Made by a program: the position numbers and the translations under genes
Notes under the pieces: model-generated
Told to the model about the DNA's origin: nothing
Databases searched by the model: none
The model's input: the letters and a program-made list of their open reading frames with translations, nothing else
DNA from: Verrucomicrobiales bacterium
Lineage (GTDB): Bacteria; Verrucomicrobiota; Verrucomicrobiia; Limisphaerales; UBA9464
Assembly: GCA_003445095.1 (NCBI GenBank)
Contig: DLVS01000414.1
Span: forward strand, 1 to 15,939
Length of the DNA: 15,939 nucleotides
Direction: 5' to 3'
Shown here: positions 1-8,993 of the stretch, one piece after another
Layout of the letters: every line of letters begins with the position of its first letter
Position numbering within the stretch: position 1 is the stretch's first letter

Positions 1-1442
1 CGCGTCTTTGCCCCGGTGCCGGCAACACCGTCGAGAATACGGACTTTGTAGTCGGTGAGTCGGATGGGCTGAATCTTAGGGAACGAGCGGGCCAAGGCGG
101 AGCGGAGAGCGCCATCGAGCGCGTTCACGGGGCCGTCACCGTCAGCCACGGTATGATGAACTTGGTCGCCGACCCGGATTTTCACCGTGGCCTCGCAGGT
201 CGAGGTCCCGTGGTTGCCCCGCATCGAGACGTGGTAATCATCGACCGTGAAGAGTAACTGCGGGTTGTTTGTGAGGATGCCGCGGATAAGGAGAGCGAGG
301 GAGGCTTCCGCCGCTTCGAACTCAAATCCTTGCGCTTCGAGCTCTTTCACCCGGGCCGTGATGGCGCGAGTAGTTGGGGCCTCGGGCGTGAGCTTGAATC
401 CGAGCTCGGTTGCTTTGAGGAGAATGTTGGTTCGTCCAGACAAGTCGCTTACCAAGACCCGGCGCGTGTTGCCAACGGCTTCCGGCTGGATGTGCTCGTA
501 ACTGCGGGCGACTCGCTCGATGGCATGGACATGGATGCCGCCCTTGTGGGCAAACGCGGTCTGGCCGACCCAGGGTTGGCGCGGGTCGTGGCGCACGTTG
601 GCGATTTCATCCACAAATTCCGAAAGTTCGCGGAGTTTCGGTAACGAGCGGGCCGGAACGCTAGTCCGGTTCAGCTTGAATTGGATGGTGGGAATGACGC
701 TAGTAAGATTGCAGTTACCCGTGCGTTCCCCGTAGCCGTTGATGGTGCCCTGGATGTGAGTGGCGCCCACTTCGAGAGCCGCAATCCCGTTGGCCACGCC
801 AAAGCCGCAATCGTTGTGCGTGTGGATTCCCAGCCGGGCGTTGAGTCGCCCTCGGGCGGTAGTCGTGATACGGGTGATCTCCGAGGGCAGACAGCCTCCG
901 TTAGTGTCACAGAGGCAGATGACATCGGCTCCGGCCTTTTCCGCGGCTTGCCAGGTCGCCAAAGTGTATTCGGCATCGTCTTTGAATCCATCGAAGGCGT
1001 GTTCTGCATCGTACACCACGGTCCGGCCGTGATCCTTCAGGAAGCGGATGGTGTCGCCGATCATGGCGAGATTCTCGTCAGGTTTTACGCGTAGAACTTC
1101 ATGCACATGGAGGAGCCAAGATTTGCCGACAATCGTGACTACGGGTGACTCGGCGTCCAGCAGCATCCGAATCTGTTCGTCGTTCTCCACCGGAACGCCC
1201 TTGCGCCGAGTGAACCCGAAGGAAGCGATCCGCGCGTGGCGCCATTTGCGTCGGGCGGCCTGGTGGAAGAACTCGAGGTCGCGGGGGTTCGATCCTGGCC
1301 AGCCCCCTTCGATGTAGTGAATACCGAACTGGTCCAGCCGTTCCGCGATGCGCAGCTTGTCGGCGAGCGAAAAGTTGATGCCTTCGGCCTGCGCACCGTC
1401 ACGGAGCGTGGTGTCGTAGATTTCGATGGATGGTGTCTTCAT
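1..1442 (-). CDS. cimA: (R)-citramalate synthase, CimA-type; 3' end cut by window edge
   Basis: Reading down from ATG at 1442, the frame stays open to the edge: 480 full codons with the C-terminus missing (the family is usually about 520-540 aa, so some 50 residues are outside). CimA condenses pyruvate and acetyl-CoA to (R)-citramalate, the threonine-independent route to 2-oxobutyrate and isoleucine, in the cytoplasm. Visible marks of the LeuA/HMGL-like TIM-barrel fold: YDTTLRDGAQAEG at residues 9-21 (catalytic Arg14, metal ligand Asp15), LCDTNGG, and the metal-binding HTHND at 207-211. The linker has AFAHKGGIH followed by a VLVSDLSGRTNI-like segment, and the last readable residues are YKVRILDG...GTGAKTR. 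These favour citramalate synthase over 2-isopropylmalate synthase, although substrate choice is inferred from similarity. No Shine-Dalgarno is evident. The gene is transcribed away from the sigma gene at 1736 and is preceded by an Ile-rich leader ORF and a terminator hairpin. Confidence 0.93.
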   Translation of the reverse strand, partial: MKTPSIEIYDTTLRDGAQAEGINFSLADKLRIAERLDQFGIHYIEGGWPGSNPRDLEFFHQAARRKWRHARIASFGFTRRKGVPVENDEQIRMLLDAESPVVTIVGKSWLLHVHEVLRVKPDENLAMIGDTIRFLKDHGRTVVYDAEHAFDGFKDDAEYTLATWQAAEKAGADVICLCDTNGGCLPSEITRITTTARGRLNARLGIHTHNDCGFGVANGIAALEVGATHIQGTINGYGERTGNCNLTSVIPTIQFKLNRTSVPARSLPKLRELSEFVDEIANVRHDPRQPWVGQTAFAHKGGIHVHAIERVARSYEHIQPEAVGNTRRVLVSDLSGRTNILLKATELGFKLTPEAPTTRAITARVKELEAQGFEFEAAEASLALLIRGILTNNPQLLFTVDDYHVSMRGNHGTSTCEATVKIRVGDQVHHTVADGDGPVNALDGALRSALARSFPKIQPIRLTDYKVRILDGVAGTGAKT

Positions 1443-1473
1443 GGGCGGGGTAGGACTGGAGCTAGAAAAGCCA

Positions 1474-1506
1474 AAAGCCCCGTTCCGGGTCGCGGAACGG
1501 GGCTTT
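1474..1506 (-). terminator. Intrinsic terminator in the cimA leader (attenuator hairpin)
   Basis: A perfect 14-bp stem: AAAGCCCCGTTCCG pairs with CGGAACGGGGCTTT around a 5-nt loop. Read on the minus strand, the 3' arm runs into TTTT, then GGCTTTTC, the form of a Rho-independent terminator. It lies 31 nt before the cimA start codon and downstream of a small Ile-rich ORF, so it would end transcription before cimA rather than after a gene. No plus-strand gene ends nearby that would need it. The structure is seen directly; its role as a conditional attenuator is inferred. Confidence 0.85.
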
Positions 1507-1531
1507 CGACTTGGGGAAAACTCGTTCAGCG
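1491..1531 (-). promoter_or_regulatory. Candidate antiterminator of the cimA attenuator
   Basis: On the minus strand, CGCTGAACG (1531-1523) can pair with CGTTCCGCG (1499-1491): 8 of 9 positions pair, with one U-C mismatch. The 3' partner overlaps the upstream arm and loop of the terminator at 1474-1506, so the two folds exclude each other. The 5' arm contains the last Arg codon and the stop codon of the leader ORF. A ribosome that reaches the stop would mask this arm and let the terminator form, while one stalled at the Ile codons 16 or more nt upstream would leave it free. The pairing is seen in the sequence; the switch is inferred, and the duplex is modest in strength. Confidence 0.5.
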
Positions 1532-1618
1532 GCGCGGCGGGCGTCCAATGCAAATGGCAATGATACCAATTCCCTGCGGGCCGGCTGGACGACTCAAATT
1601 GTTCGGAACGGAATGCAT
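1526..1618 (-). CDS. Isoleucine-rich leader peptide of cimA (30 aa)
   Basis: A 30-codon ORF from ATG 1618 to TGA 1526-1528, upstream of cimA on the same strand. Its C-terminal half holds GIGIIAICIG (residues 16-25), with five Ile codons (17, 19, 20, 22, 24) out of eight, followed by a Pro/Arg-rich tail. An Ile run in a short ORF directly before a terminator hairpin and an isoleucine-biosynthesis gene is the classic layout of ribosome-mediated attenuation, as in the ilv, leu and his leaders of Proteobacteria. The peptide would have no function of its own: the ribosome's speed over the Ile codons would report charged tRNA-Ile. The start is weakly supported because no good Shine-Dalgarno precedes it, which fits most genes here. 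Chance Ile enrichment is the alternative, but its position makes that unlikely. Confidence 0.75.
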   Translation of the reverse strand: MHSVPNNLSRPAGPQGIGIIAICIGRPPRR

Positions 1619-1680
1619 CCCCGCGGAGGAAATGCCAGTTGCGAGGGCGTTCGGCAAGTTTCGTCTTGAAGAATTTCGGA

Positions 1681-1689
1681 ATTTTACCA
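1681..1689 (-). promoter_or_regulatory. Putative extended -10 promoter for the cimA leader
   Basis: On the minus strand TGGTAAAAT reads as an extended -10 (TGn plus TAAAAT, 5 of 6 to TATAAT). No convincing -35 lies about 17 nt upstream, as is common for extended -10 promoters. Transcription would begin near 1674, giving a leader of about 230 nt with the small ORF starting roughly 56 nt in. It also lies 47 nt before the divergent sigma-factor start at 1736, so the two promoters must be close. Inferred from consensus only. Confidence 0.4.
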
Positions 1690-2670: not shown

Positions 2671-5600
2671 ATGGCAAAATCGAAGTCTCCCCCAATCGTC
2701 CCCGTCTCGACCGTTCCGCCTCCTGCCAAGGGAGTTTCCATTCCGGAAGCCTCCGCCGCCGACACGTCCCCGCCGCGTCTATTTCGGCCGGTGGATTGGC
2801 TGACGCTCGGGGTTGTCTCGTTGGTGATGTTGTTGGCGTATCTCCTCACGCTGGCTCCCGACTTGACGTTGGAGGACTCAGGCGAACTTGCCGTCGGCTC
2901 CATGTATGCCGGAGTCCCCCATCCGCCGGGATACCCGCTCTGGACGCTCTATTCGTGGGCCTTCACGAAGTTGTTACCGTTCTCCAACATGGCCTGGCGA
3001 GTCGCTGTGTCATCGGCCGTGGCGGCGGCCTTGGCTTCTGGACTGATCGGCATGCTCGTGTCGCGCGGAAGCAGCCTCATTGTCGAAGGCATCGAACAGT
3101 TTAAAGACATCGAACGGCGCTGGGAAAACCCGCTGTGCCTCGTGTCGGGCCTGGTGGCCGGGCTCCTGCTGGGATTTAACGGATTCATTTGGAGCCAAGC
3201 GGTCATCGTGGAGGTGTATACGCTGGCGGTGCTCACTTTGGCCGGCGTGTTGGTGTGCCTGTTCCGATGGACTTATGCCCCTCACCAACGTCGTTACTTA
3301 TATTTCGCCTTCTTCTTGTTCGGGTTGTGTTTCTGCAATCACCAAACTCTGATTGTCGCGGCCATCGGCCTTGAAGTGACGGTGCTCATGGCCGATCGGC
3401 GGCTCGGACGCGACCTCTTCTTCGCCAACGCCCTCATATACGCCTTGGTGATGTTTGGGCGGACGTGGGGACTGACCACGATCCTCGCCGATAACCCCGG
3501 CGTCTTCTCCATTTTCAATCTTGTGGGGTTGGGCTCGCTCATCGTGGCCCTGGCCTATACGGGAGTCGTTGATGGCAAAGTCCGCCTCTGGACGTTGGTA
3601 GGTGTGGGTGTGGTCGGTTTCGCTTTATTCAATCTGCTGACCAGCGGTCAGTCCAGTCTCGCGGCCGTGAAAGCCAACACGACGTTATCCATGCAAGCGG
3701 TTGCTGAGGCCGCGGCCGCCGCGGAGGGACAGATAAGCCTCGCGATCAAGCTTTTGACGGGATTCTCGCTGCTCGGCTTGGTGGCGGCATTCGTCGTTTC
3801 CTATAGCACTGAGCGTAAGGGGCGGCTGTTGTCTGAATGGGCGCCGGTCCTGATTTCAGGCCTCGTGTTCGGTCTCGGGGCCGCCGTGTACTTCTACATG
3901 CCGATCGCGTCGATGACGAATCCGCCCATGAACTGGGGCTATCCGCGGACCTGGGAAGGATTCATTCACGCGTTCACCCGTGGTCAATATGAGAAGACAA
4001 ACCCCACGAGTGATCCCTTTCTGCTCCTCCAACAGATGTCGATGTATGCCGAGGGGGCGAAAGAAGAGTTTAACTGGGCCAATCTATTGATCGGACTCGT
4101 TCCCTTCCTCTTCATCAAACAAATGCAGAAGCGGGAGCGCGGTTGGCTCATCGGCCTCTCCGCCATTTACCTCACGCTCGCATTTCTCTTGATGATTCTG
4201 CTCAACCCGAGCGTGGACCGTCAAAGTCGCGAGCTCGTGAAAGTGTTTTTTACCTCGTCCCACATTGTCATCGCCATGGGCGTGGGGTTTGGTCTGTCGC
4301 TCATTGGCGCGATTATCCTCACCCAGTATCGACAGTACCGGTACTGGTTGCTGATCGGCGCGGCGGTAGCCTGTGCCTTTAACTTGTACGAGGTATTGGC
4401 CACGTTTCGGGAGACGGTCTTCCCCATTCTGCGGGGCGCGACTCTGCTGAGCTTGGCCATTTCGTTCGGCTTTCTAGTGCTGGTCATTCTCCAACGAGAA
4501 CGCGCGCTCTTCGCCCCGTTTCTAGCACTATTTGCTCTCATTCCCTTCGACTCGGCGCTGTCGCATTGGGGCGATAACGAACAGCGGAACCACTATTTCG
4601 GATTTTGGTTCGGTCACGATATGTTTGAGCCGGGGGCCGACACCTCGGCGGCGCCGGCGCCCAAGGACAAATCGGGCAAGCCTCTGTATCCGCCGATGAC
4701 CACGAACTCCGTTTTGTTTGGCGGAACCGACCCCGGCCGATTCGCCCCCACCTACATGGTATTTGCCGAAAGCTTCACTCCCGCCGAGCATCGCCGAAAC
4801 CCCAATTTCGATCGCCGCGATGTTTATGTGATCACCCAAAATGCGCTCGCCGATAATACCTATTTAGATTATATCCGCGCACACTACAATCGCAGCGCCG
4901 AAGTGGACCTGCCGTTCTTCTACGGAATGCTGAATGATGCGAAGTCGGCCCTCCGCGGCCGAACCAATACTGCGGCGCAGCTCGCAGCGCCACTGGACCG
5001 GTTCCTCACCGACTTGGGGGCTCGTATTGAGAAGCGACGCCGGGCCGGCAGTTCGATGTTTACGCCGGCAAGTTTTACCGACTTCAAGGCCTTTCAATCC
5101 AAACTGCAGGCTGCCGCCGATCCGGTGTCGAAGTTCCTAAAAGAAAAACTCGGCTCGGCGATCGATGCTGACGCCAAGACTCTGGCCCGAGCGTTGAATC
5201 GACTCATGGAAGGCCCGGCGTTTTACACCGGCGCTGATGCCGGGGGGCCAACGGGCCAAGCGAACCCTTTCGCAGCGGTTCCGATGAGCCAGCATCTCCA
5301 ACGCTTCGCCAAACAGGATCCTCCGACCGCCAATCGCATTCGCTTGAATCGCCTCCTGCTGGAAGCGGCGTATCCTGAGTTGATCGTAAAAAGTCAGGCC
5401 GGCCTTTATCCGGATCTCGAAATTATCACACCGTCGCCGAAAGACGCGGCGCGCTGCTTCCAAGAGTACACCGAGGATGCCGCGCGGAGGTATCAGCTCA
5501 ATCAATTGGATGCGGGCGAAATCGTGAATGTGCTTCCGGACGGTCGGGTGTCGGTCACCGGACAAGTCGCCGTCATGGCGATCAACGGGTTGCTGACCAA

Positions 5601-6687
5601 AGTGATATTCGACGCGAATCCAGATCACGAATTCTACGTTGAAGAAAGCTTCGCTCTGAAATGGATGTACCCGCATTTGGTTCCCGGCGGCATCATTATG
5701 AAGATTGAGCGGCAGCCCGTGAAGGAGCTCAGCGAAGAAGTGATCCAGCGCGATCACGAGTATTGGAGCCAGTATTCCGCTCGGCTGATTGGGGATTGGA
5801 TCAAATACGACACCACGGTTAAGGAAGTTACTGAGTTCGCGAAGCGGACGTATCGCACCCGGGATTTGGTCGGATTCAAGGGAGATCCCAAGTTCGTCCG
5901 CGACCGGAATGCGCAGAAGGCGTTCAGTAAACTGAGGAATGCGATCGGGAAAAGCATTTACACGTGGCGCGCCCAAAACGCGTCCCATTCGCCAGAAGAG
6001 CAGCAGCGCTACCTGCGTGAGGCCGAGTTTGCCTTGAAGCAGGCGTTCGCGTTTTGCCCGTACAGCCCAGAAACCGTCTTCAACTACGCCTCGCTCCTGG
6101 CGAGCATGGGACGATATGAGGACGCGGCGACGGTGGCGCGGACGTGTTATGAATTTGACCCCGACAACTACGGGGTTCGGCAGTTGCTCCAGCAGTTGGA
6201 ACAACTGAAGGCGACCAGTCCGGTGGCGGCGTTGAACCCGCAGGGCATGGGCGAGATCGAGGACAAGTTTCGCGCTGCGCCGACCAACGTGGATATCGGA
6301 TTCCAACTGGCTTCCGCGTACTTCCAAGCCAATCGTAGCAATGACGCGATGGCGGTGCTTGAATCGTTCCTCACGAATCCTGGTAGCGACATACGGATCC
6401 TGGTCTCTTTGGCGGAGGCGTACCGACAAGTTGGGAACGTGGAAAAGATGGAGCGGGCTTTGGAGCGATTTGCGCAGCAGTCACCGGAAAGTCCTGAGGC
6501 TTGGTTTGATCTGGCAGCAATCCAAGCTGCCCAAGCCAAAACGGACGCGGCTCGGACGAGCCTTACGACATCCCTGAAACTTAGCGACGCGCGGTTGGCG
6601 AAGGACCCCAAGGCGCGAAACCTCCGCGAGCTCTACTCGAGTGACTCCCGTTTCGACCCAGTCCGGGGCACCCTGAAAGTGCCTTGA
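2671..6687 (+). CDS. DUF2723 GT-C glycosyltransferase (protein O-mannosyltransferase-like) with C-terminal TPRs
   Basis: 1338 aa from ATG 2671; a TTG eight codons earlier (2647) also keeps the frame but is less likely. After a Pro-rich N-terminus, the first membrane helix (about 44-61) leads into APDLTLEDSGELAVG (62-76), the acidic first-loop motif of the DUF2723 family, then HPPGYPLW. Many more hydrophobic helices run to about residue 620, with the family-typical NWGYPRTWEGFIHAFTRGQY between them. A large soluble part follows with DNEQRNHYFGFWFG, and from about 1105 to the end there are TPR-like helical repeats (SPETVFNYASLLASMGRYEDAA and later copies). DUF2723 includes animal TMEM260, an O-mannosyltransferase, so transfer of a lipid-linked sugar to exported protein is the likely role; substrate and donor are unknown. 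It is probably cotranscribed with the sigma factor and small membrane protein upstream. Confidence 0.85.
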   Translation: MAKSKSPPIVPVSTVPPPAKGVSIPEASAADTSPPRLFRPVDWLTLGVVSLVMLLAYLLTLAPDLTLEDSGELAVGSMYAGVPHPPGYPLWTLYSWAFTKLLPFSNMAWRVAVSSAVAAALASGLIGMLVSRGSSLIVEGIEQFKDIERRWENPLCLVSGLVAGLLLGFNGFIWSQAVIVEVYTLAVLTLAGVLVCLFRWTYAPHQRRYLYFAFFLFGLCFCNHQTLIVAAIGLEVTVLMADRRLGRDLFFANALIYALVMFGRTWGLTTILADNPGVFSIFNLVGLGSLIVALAYTGVVDGKVRLWTLVGVGVVGFALFNLLTSGQSSLAAVKANTTLSMQAVAEAAAAAEGQISLAIKLLTGFSLLGLVAAFVVSYSTERKGRLLSEWAPVLISGLVFGLGAAVYFYMPIASMTNPPMNWGYPRTWEGFIHAFTRGQYEKTNPTSDPFLLLQQMSMYAEGAKEEFNWANLLIGLVPFLFIKQMQKRERGWLIGLSAIYLTLAFLLMILLNPSVDRQSRELVKVFFTSSHIVIAMGVGFGLSLIGAIILTQYRQYRYWLLIGAAVACAFNLYEVLATFRETVFPILRGATLLSLAISFGFLVLVILQRERALFAPFLALFALIPFDSALSHWGDNEQRNHYFGFWFGHDMFEPGADTSAAPAPKDKSGKPLYPPMTTNSVLFGGTDPGRFAPTYMVFAESFTPAEHRRNPNFDRRDVYVITQNALADNTYLDYIRAHYNRSAEVDLPFFYGMLNDAKSALRGRTNTAAQLAAPLDRFLTDLGARIEKRRRAGSSMFTPASFTDFKAFQSKLQAAADPVSKFLKEKLGSAIDADAKTLARALNRLMEGPAFYTGADAGGPTGQANPFAAVPMSQHLQRFAKQDPPTANRIRLNRLLLEAAYPELIVKSQAGLYPDLEIITPSPKDAARCFQEYTEDAARRYQLNQLDAGEIVNVLPDGRVSVTGQVAVMAINGLLTKVIFDANPDHEFYVEESFALKWMYPHLVPGGIIMKIERQPVKELSEEVIQRDHEYWSQYSARLIGDWIKYDTTVKEVTEFAKRTYRTRDLVGFKGDPKFVRDRNAQKAFSKLRNAIGKSIYTWRAQNASHSPEEQQRYLREAEFALKQAFAFCPYSPETVFNYASLLASMGRYEDAATVARTCYEFDPDNYGVRQLLQQLEQLKATSPVAALNPQGMGEIEDKFRAAPTNVDIGFQLASAYFQANRSNDAMAVLESFLTNPGSDIRILVSLAEAYRQVGNVEKMERALERFAQQSPESPEAWFDLAAIQAAQAKTDAARTSLTTSLKLSDARLAKDPKARNLRELYSSDSRFDPVRGTLKVP

Positions 6688-7685: not shown

Positions 7686-8993
7686 CTACTTTAGGGTGAG
7701 GTTGGTCGGTTGCTTGATTGTCCCGCCTGGTTCGGCGTTGAAACCAAATTTCACAGAGGTTCCCGCCTTGAGTGACGAATTCCACGCGGCGTTGCGAATC
7801 GTGTAGCGGTTCCCGTCACGCGAGACGAGTTCGGCGTCCCAAAGAGTCGTGATGCGGTGAGGGAAATCAAATGTCACCGTCCACCCGCTCAAATTCCGAG
7901 TAGACGTGTTCTTAAGCGTCGCCTCGCCGGTGAACCCTGTACCCCAATTGCTCGTCGCTTTCACCTTGAGGGTTCCCGTCACGGGCGTCGTGTCCGGCGG
8001 AGGGAAGGTCGGCCCACACACTGGATCGGTTGGCTTTCCATTCACTGCAAATCCCGTTAGCTTCACCCCTCGGCCGGCCGCCGCCTGAAACCCGAAGGTG
8101 ACGGTCGCCCCCGGGGCGATTTGCCCGTTCCAATAGGCATTACCGAAATTGAACGTACCGCCGCTGAAACCACGGCTGACCGCGTCCCAGAAGTTTACAA
8201 TCGTTCCATTGAGTTGAAATGAGAGCGTCCACAGGTTGATCGTATTGGTGCCCGGATTGGTGAGGCGAATGGTTGAGACAAATCCGGTGTCCCAACGGCT
8301 GTCTTCTCGGCACTCGACGACCGGAGTGGGACTTGGCAATGGTGGTGGCGTCGTGCCACCGGGATTTCCATAACCGGTGCCGTCTCCGAAATCGACATCG
8401 CTCAACGAGAAGAATGCTTCACCAGCCGGATCGATCCGTTGCCAGATGACGTAAATCACGTGCTTCCCTGTGCGGGCGGGAAACACGGTGTCGAAGACGT
8501 AGGTGTTTCCCTCTTTGCGGGCATTTTGCGCGCCGTCCAAGGGCACAAGATCGGCCCAGCGCAAGGGTTGCGTAGGTTTCCAGTCTGGGCGTGAGATGTA
8601 CGCTTTGAAAAAGCTCGGATCGTGCGGCACATGAGCGGCGAACACCATGTGGAACGGACCGGGATTTACTGAAGTCGCCGGCCAATCTGAGCGCACCAAG
8701 TCTAGCCCGGCATACTTGGACCGGCCCGCGCTCGCGAGCTGACCGTCGGGAATCAGGGCCTGATAATTGTAGTCTGGAACCAGGCGATTGACCTCGGACC
8801 AATCGTAGAACGGTTGCGTTCCGCCTACGGCCAGAGCAGCCGTCGATGACGGACTTTTGGGAGTTTCCGGATTTTCGAGGAAGATTCGGTAAACCCGGCT
8901 CACGGGACTAAACATGGATCCGTGGCCCAATGCGGGAGTGCCGAGTGCCATCAGCAGAACGACAAGCCGCAGTATAGGTAACGTTTTCATCAT
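7686..8993 (-). CDS. Secreted AA10 lytic polysaccharide monooxygenase with two CBM2-like domains
   Basis: 435 aa from ATG 8993 (a second ATG directly follows). The signal peptide ends ...GTPALG, so cleavage leaves His24 as the mature N-terminus, as the copper histidine brace requires. The AA10 domain spans 24 to about 203: HGSMFSPVSR, second brace His121 in FAAHVPHDPSFFKAYIS, then HVIYVIWQRIDPAGEAFFSLSDVDF near its end, with a Phe (194 or 195) in the usual axial position. A Gly/Pro/Thr linker (about 203-225) leads to a first CBM2-like domain (226-326; Cys228 and Cys326 may form a disulfide), a short Pro linker, and a second one (about 336-435; NWGTGF, GWTVTFDF, no Cys). LPMOs oxidatively cleave crystalline chitin or cellulose outside the cell. 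The substrate is not fixed by sequence; CBM2 binds either polymer. The gene is monocistronic and convergent with the DUF2723 gene. Confidence 0.92.
   Translation of the reverse strand: MMKTLPILRLVVLLMALGTPALGHGSMFSPVSRVYRIFLENPETPKSPSSTAALAVGGTQPFYDWSEVNRLVPDYNYQALIPDGQLASAGRSKYAGLDLVRSDWPATSVNPGPFHMVFAAHVPHDPSFFKAYISRPDWKPTQPLRWADLVPLDGAQNARKEGNTYVFDTVFPARTGKHVIYVIWQRIDPAGEAFFSLSDVDFGDGTGYGNPGGTTPPPLPSPTPVVECREDSRWDTGFVSTIRLTNPGTNTINLWTLSFQLNGTIVNFWDAVSRGFSGGTFNFGNAYWNGQIAPGATVTFGFQAAAGRGVKLTGFAVNGKPTDPVCGPTFPPPDTTPVTGTLKVKATSNWGTGFTGEATLKNTSTRNLSGWTVTFDFPHRITTLWDAELVSRDGNRYTIRNAAWNSSLKAGTSVKFGFNAEPGGTIKQPTNLTLK

Follow-up and report, generated by a model that had tools for sequence, protein, structure and literature searches.

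A candidate isoleucine-sensing attenuator upstream of citramalate synthase in Verrucomicrobiota, and putative sister leaders on ilvB and leuA

Citramalate synthase, the product of cimA, constitutes the entry to the threonine-independent isoleucine route, and the question raised by the present locus is whether the expression of this gene is adjusted to the supply of isoleucine by the short ORF and the hairpins that precede it. The locus lies at one edge of the window—by which term we mean the whole stretch of DNA analysed, 15,939 nucleotides from a Verrucomicrobiales bacterium—where an earlier note, made from the sequence alone, had proposed an Ile-sensing attenuator. The encoded CimA carries the LeuA_dimer allosteric domain at residues 377-479. 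The next upstream gene with a recognised domain, located at 1736-2302 on the plus strand, encodes a Sigma-70-family factor (regions 2 and 4), whose transcription is directed away from cimA.

Layout of the cimA leader

The features of the leader are collected in Table 1. The 30-codon ORF described in the earlier note, with Ile at codons 17, 19, 20, 22, and 24, was present on the minus strand at the coordinates there given and encodes the peptide MHSVPNNLSRPAGPQGIGIIAICIGRPPRR; in-frame TTG and GTG codons occur upstream of its ATG. The antiterminator that the same note had drawn between 1531-1523 and 1499-1491, with the stop codon of the ORF included, was likewise recovered with 8 of 9 pairs and one U-C mismatch, and gains further pairs between UUU 1520-1518 and AAA 1506-1504. 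The 14-bp terminator is found 31 nt before cimA, as had been claimed, with an interrupted T tract, unlike several relatives that have an unbroken T run after the hairpin; and this stem lengthens to 20 pairs when extended by script. A search for the terminator pattern gave a single occurrence in the window and none in 200 shuffles of it, and no shuffle of the leader region, out of 200, folded as well as the region itself (z -2.62).

Table 1. Features of the cimA leader region in the window.
Feature	Coordinates	Strand	Basis and remarks
cimA, citramalate synthase	3..1442	minus	TIGR00977, 619.4 bits (cut-off 450); proposed regulated gene; 480 aa in the window, runs off the edge
Leader ORF, 30 codons + TGA	1526..1618	minus	ATG 1618-1616, TGA 1528-1526; start codon uncertain
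Candidate control codons, 5 Ile (17, 19, 20, 22, 24) within 8 codons	1547..1570	minus	Reading of the window sequence; frame-specific Ile in 38 leaders
Antiterminator 5' arm CGCTGAACGAGTTT	1518..1531	minus	Contains the leader stop TGA 1528-1526; TGAACG kept in relatives, pair counts
Common segment AAAGCCCCGTTCCGCG	1491..1506	minus	Serves as antiterminator 3' arm and, as far as 1493, as terminator 5' arm; alignment, nascent-RNA folding
Intrinsic terminator hairpin, 14 bp	1474..1506	minus	1506-1493 with 1487-1474, loop 1492-1488
T-rich tail TTTTGGCTTTT	1466..1476	minus	First bases pair in the terminator stem; T run interrupted in the window copy
Possible extended -10 TGGTAAAAT	1681..1689	minus	Sequence match only; promoter scan negative

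Generic scans of the window returned 0 terminators and 0 promoters, the former result probably because the T tract is interrupted. That negative scan and the broken T tail weigh against the window's copy, but a predicted intrinsic terminator lies between the leader ORF and the gene. The extended -10 promoter proposed in the earlier note could not be substantiated beyond the match in sequence, and neither a promoter nor a Shine-Dalgarno site was seen to recur among the 24 leaders listed; the promoter, the ribosome-binding site, and the start of the ORF are thus to be regarded as putative only.

The element in related genomes

A scan of species genomes yielded 79 loci with a cimA relative, of which the 78 with upstream sequence were examined: the terminator was present in 26, whereas the other 52 were without the element. 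All the terminator-bearing loci are labelled Verrucomicrobiota, one of them being Pedosphaera. In a tree of the CimA proteins of the window and the 78 loci—constructed by a quick method, branch support being SH-aLRT only—all 27 element-bearing rows fell in one group of 28 (support 92), whose only row without it, L050, has an Ile leader of its own; a single origin of the cimA element appears likely from that distribution. In 15 of 18 genomes the exact terminator pattern was confined to a single site, which lay on the contig of cimA, and a repeat family was therefore rejected as the origin of the hairpin; the antiterminator-arm pattern was found in all 18, with one extra match in G014.

The L050 contig, labelled Candidatus Taylorbacteria, encodes at 3001-5790 a protein of 929 aa in which CimA is joined to a NifS/IscS-like cysteine desulfurase; the genes for IF-2 and ClpB lie nearby. 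Its Ile-rich leader MQMSKKIIITAIIITSPNGGGLARV (2797-2874) is accompanied by a different, T-tailed hairpin, and its CimA falls within the Verrucomicrobiota Ile-leader group of the protein tree. At another locus, L053, an Ile/Val-rich ORF (2789-2939, ending in SIVVVGSIIIVD) touches a hairpin without a T tail before a more distant cimA.

We constructed a covariance model of the cimA element, designated R1, and ran it on 320 genomes of the order, where it matched 96 genomes at E<=0.001 and 46 at 47.9 bits or more; two further matches, of 43.9 and 43.5 bits, were cut by contig ends. Of the 46 genomes with a strong match, 45 have cimA as the gene directly downstream, and in the other the contig ends first, so that what follows the element is a gene of isoleucine synthesis itself. 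Of 387 genomes sampled across the phylum, 62 were matched by R1 at E<=0.001, and the best of these matches besides G004 reached 40.4 bits, for which reason R1 matches under about 45 bits were treated as background. Of the weak matches in the order, the 25 that were inspected, on 24 loci outside cimA (L158 and L161-L183; 28 to 45 bits), each together with the frame next to it, were rejected, since none of the 24 loci had a cimA. When 11 of them were read in three frames, a long open frame ended at the supposed stop in each—seven of these endings being, we presume, that of ribosomal protein S9—and we interpret the loci so inspected as ordinary terminators that follow genes. For the same reason we dropped an Arg leader on argC, a gene read by eye after five R1 matches.

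The codon counts drew on 45 sources, namely the window plus 44 of the 46 genomes with strong matches; 44 of these sources fitted the pattern (L148 was filtered out), and the removal of near-copies (<12 differences in 90 nt) then left 38 non-redundant leaders, in each of which the 24 codons before the stop were counted. In frame, 156 of 912 codons were Ile (17.1%), as compared with 13 (1.4%) and 26 (2.9%) in the two alternative frames, and none of 100,000 random choices of frame matched the in-frame count. The in-frame count was the highest of the three in 36 of the 38, the exceptions being L119 (1 against 3) and L137 (2 against 3), in which another frame was the richer; and it amounted to two or fewer among the 24 codons in 8 leaders. 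Neither Val (37, 36, and 35 codons) nor Leu (46, 52, and 90) was enriched in frame in these 38 cimA leaders. The leader is therefore a short ORF rich in codons of the pathway product. In 26 of the 38 the last Ile codon precedes the stop by 7-8 codons, and the peptides are highly divergent save for Ile and a shared Arg close to the end. The alignment of relatives that the earlier note had set as a test thus bears out its proposal: the short frame and its Ile codons are kept while the remainder of the peptide drifts, and the strong matches to the element sit at cimA.

Both hairpins are also kept in the relatives, together with some compensatory changes of the sort that the note had asked for. 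The 22 distinct rows of the alignment, A1, were picked by the words TGAACG and CCCCGTTC, so that the selection itself accounts for the invariance at those words and for part of the paired percentage; with that proviso, 98.7% of 308 terminator cells were paired, and 96.6% of 236 antiterminator cells, the latter versus 27-50% when the partner was slid by 1-3 columns. In sequences chosen by the terminator—25 loci and the window, the remaining terminator-bearing locus of the 26, L011, being cut short and left out—TGAACG stands 18-26 nt before CCCCGTTC in 26 of 26, which spacing keeps the stop codon at some 20 nt before the terminator. Among the terminator pairs, 8 of 14 never vary and three have two-sided changes, a number equalled by 30 of 500 shuffles; in the main antiterminator helix 6 of 8 pairs never vary, and one antiterminator pair has two-sided changes, a number equalled by 245 of 500 shuffles, although its five changed cells were equalled by none. 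This pair, 1531-1491 (C-G in 13 rows, A-U in 3, U-A in 2, and unpaired in 4 of the 22), speaks for the antiterminator alone because its 3' base is in the terminator loop. The rows with changed pairs form two related groups (L030, L033, and L040; L004 and L013), and the covariation across both hairpins is modest.

A proposed mechanism and its rivals

The ORF, its Ile codons, the two hairpins, their conservation, and their spacing can all be read directly from the sequences; and we consider it highly probable on those grounds that the cimA leader is a ribosome-mediated transcription attenuator sensing charged tRNA-Ile. The translation of the leader, the stalling, the termination, and the response to isoleucine that we infer would proceed as follows. 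With plentiful Ile-tRNA the ribosome would reach the stop codon (1528-1526) and cover the 5' arm of the antiterminator, upon which covering the terminator (1506-1474) would form and transcription would end before cimA. With scarce Ile-tRNA the ribosome would stall among the Ile codons, and about 6 nt would separate its leading edge from the stop; the arm at 1531-1518 would then be free to pair with 1506-1491, which pairing would block the terminator and permit the transcription of cimA. The antiterminator shares an arm with the terminator, and it is the other arm that the ribosome would be expected to mask.

The position of the ribosome was estimated by assuming its edge to be 15 nt from the first base of the A-site codon. 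With the last Ile codon in the A site, that edge falls about 6 nt before the stop (median of the 38 leaders); the antiterminator arm starts 3 nt before the stop, so that a ribosome at the last Ile would end just short of the arm. We folded the nascent RNA, namely, the RNA before the 3' arm of the terminator is made. When a ribosome was placed at the last Ile codon, the key pair of the antiterminator was predicted to form in 33 of the 38; in L123 and L147 the ribosome would cover the arm, and in three others the key pair was absent. With the edge fixed at -6 the key pair had P >0.5 in 36 of the 38, where, as a control, shuffling of the RNA behind the arm left the key G still pairing with something at a mean probability of 0.63. 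In the absence of a ribosome the antiterminator formed in 28, the arm paired upstream in 6 (the window included), and the arm was free in 4. The median energy was -11.7 kcal/mol for the antiterminator segment and -26.7 kcal/mol for the terminator segment, the latter being the stabler in each of the 38; therefore, the switch would have to be kinetic, chosen during transcription.

Three other readings of the locus were weighed. That the hairpin ends some other transcript, as an ordinary terminator, and that the Ile-rich frame arose by chance, might be suggested by the negative generic scan in the window and by the outer AAAACCCC/GGGGTTTT that ordinary-looking terminators of the order have in common; yet chance would hardly place the strong matches next to cimA in 45 of 46 genomes, restrict the Ile enrichment to one frame in 36 of 38 leaders, or keep TGAACG at 18-26 nt before CCCCGTTC in all 26 sequences chosen by the terminator. 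The presence of the arm pattern in all 18 genomes searched, with its one extra match in G014, and the sigma factor at 1736-2302, transcribed away from the hairpin, likewise tell against this explanation, which we regard as very improbable. The constant position of the ORF before cimA would also suit a functional small protein, or an ORF that couples translation to cimA, but the peptides differ widely except for Ile and the common Arg near the end, and the hairpin and 31 nt separate the ORF from cimA; to this possibility we would give similarly little credence.

A metabolite riboswitch or a T-box, sensing isoleucine or its tRNA directly and without translation, would accord with the strong conservation of a small RNA motif. 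The Rfam scan of the window, however, gave no match at the gathering score, its four weak matches all being far below it, and the scan of 12 further loci (six of them ilvB loci) gave only two tRNAs at that score, both in L050, so that no gathering-score match assigns the leader to the T-box or to any other Rfam family. Upstream of both hairpins, moreover, the aligned sequences have little in common but the Ile codons. A direct sensor of this kind seems to us extremely improbable, and the ribosome-mediated attenuator is the reading with which we continue.

Leaders on ilvB and leuA, and known systems

The regions upstream of ilvB, leuA, and trpE were inspected in 15 genomes of the cimA-leader group. 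For ilvB, a Val-rich leader (for example, MNRTSPVVVLVAGGEAAAGTCRA) was present in all 14 loci above the family cut-off (L184-L197; 14 of the 15 genomes), followed by a hairpin and a T run; some 165-220 nt separate the leader's stop from the family match. For leuA, with 14 loci, a Leu-rich leader (for example, NLRLTALALLLSRATVGV) is carried by most of the genomes, and such a leader with a terminator was found in the 8 loci that were parsed (L227, L229, L232-L235, L238, and L239), where the last part of the ORF appears able to pair with the 5' arm of the terminator; in the other 6 the script found no terminator, and L228 and L236 are seemingly without a leader. One example of leuA was identified as 2-isopropylmalate synthase by NF002991 (816.7 bits). 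Val accounted for 59 of 312 codons in frame versus 7 and 30 in the 13 parsed ilvB leaders, and Leu for 50 of 192 versus 4 and 19 in the 8 parsed leuA leaders, which counts are somewhat favoured by the parsing script, in that it took the stop with the most Val or Leu when given a choice. Trp leaders were discarded, since the 15 trpE loci had no recurring Trp-rich leader—isolated ORFs contained as many as 4 Trp codons—and trpE was taken as a negative control.

Models built from those ilvB and leuA leaders (R2 and R3, respectively; threshold E<=0.001) matched 291 and 243 of the 320 genomes of the order, these figures being model matches of which the 30 best loci each were checked: 29 of the 30 best R2 loci adjoin ilvB and 29 of the 30 best R3 loci adjoin leuA, one of the latter neighbours, at L316, being a distant relative (26% identity). 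The control outside the order covers R1 and R2. In the phylum sample R2 matched 33 of the 387 genomes, two of which (G004 and G239) are members of the order, and of 29 such loci ilvB was found only at L329 (G239) and L356 (25.3 bits); L330-L334 were rejected as ilvB leaders on a three-frame reading. The ilvB and leuA leaders thus seem to be order-wide, and the cimA leader seems confined to a sublineage.

We think it probable, taking these distributions together, that one order of Verrucomicrobiota possesses a branch-specific attenuation regulon, in which Val (with Leu) codons on ilvB, Leu codons on leuA, and Ile codons on cimA would govern each branched-chain arm by its own codons. Of the three, the leaders on ilvB and leuA look ancestral in the order and that on cimA the youngest, having presumably arisen once in the sublineage and perhaps moved with cimA into the Patescibacteria-labelled L050, whose Ile leader has another terminator. 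This three-leader arrangement is the most interesting side of the finding: on cimA, ilvB, and leuA a single cell would offer three natural versions of one mechanism, each tuned to a different amino acid, and the hundreds of genomes available would allow study both of the co-evolution of control codons, stop position, and hairpin arms and of the birth of a new attenuator on a gene.

Classical ribosome-mediated attenuators govern branched-chain amino-acid operons, such as ilv and leu of E. coli. The cimA leader resembles these in its short ORF rich in codons of the product, in the competition between antiterminator and terminator, and in the pathway gene downstream, but differs in having cimA as the target, in the enrichment of Ile alone, and in the position of the stop codon inside the antiterminator arm; we claim no sequence relation with them. 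The protector (1:2) hairpin is known from E. coli trp, and some attenuators are without one; such a hairpin does not seem to be common here, the arm being predicted to pair upstream in the 6 of 38 leaders mentioned above, the window's included.

Among the systems described in other phyla, the Corynebacterium ilvBNC leader and the ilvB-II motif (PMC11857589, PMC10272879) likewise have branched-chain codons, a terminator with an antiterminator, and one copy per genome before the gene; there, however, one leader on ilvBNC contains Ile, Val, and Leu codons, whereas here separate leaders stand on cimA, ilvB, and leuA. The Leptospira ilvB motif and the ilvB-OMG motif are also proposed uORF attenuators, the Leptospira leaders having at least three consecutive Val codons, as do many ilvB leaders here, and the ilvB-OMG motif being ascribed to "various bacterial phyla" that are unnamed in that section (PMC10272879); the six ilvB loci scanned here, in contrast, reach no Rfam gathering score. 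In Actinobacteria attenuators were computed before ilvB and trp genes, the abstract of that report on predicted leader peptides naming no cimA leader and assigning to leuA a pseudoknot (the LEU element) instead of a Leu leader peptide (PMC1262725).

In the open-licence full-text literature we found no report of attenuation or of a leader peptide in Verrucomicrobiota, nor of a leader peptide on cimA or citramalate synthase, and the word Verrucomicrob has 0 occurrences in the main text of two surveys. The kind of mechanism is known; what is new, as far as we searched, is the phylum, cimA as the target, and the three branch-specific leaders. If true, the present proposal would extend leader-peptide attenuation to Verrucomicrobiota and to citramalate synthase.

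Elsewhere in the window, at 7686-8993 on the minus strand, lies a gene for a lytic polysaccharide mono-oxygenase (LPMO_10) with a CBM_2 cellulose-binding domain.
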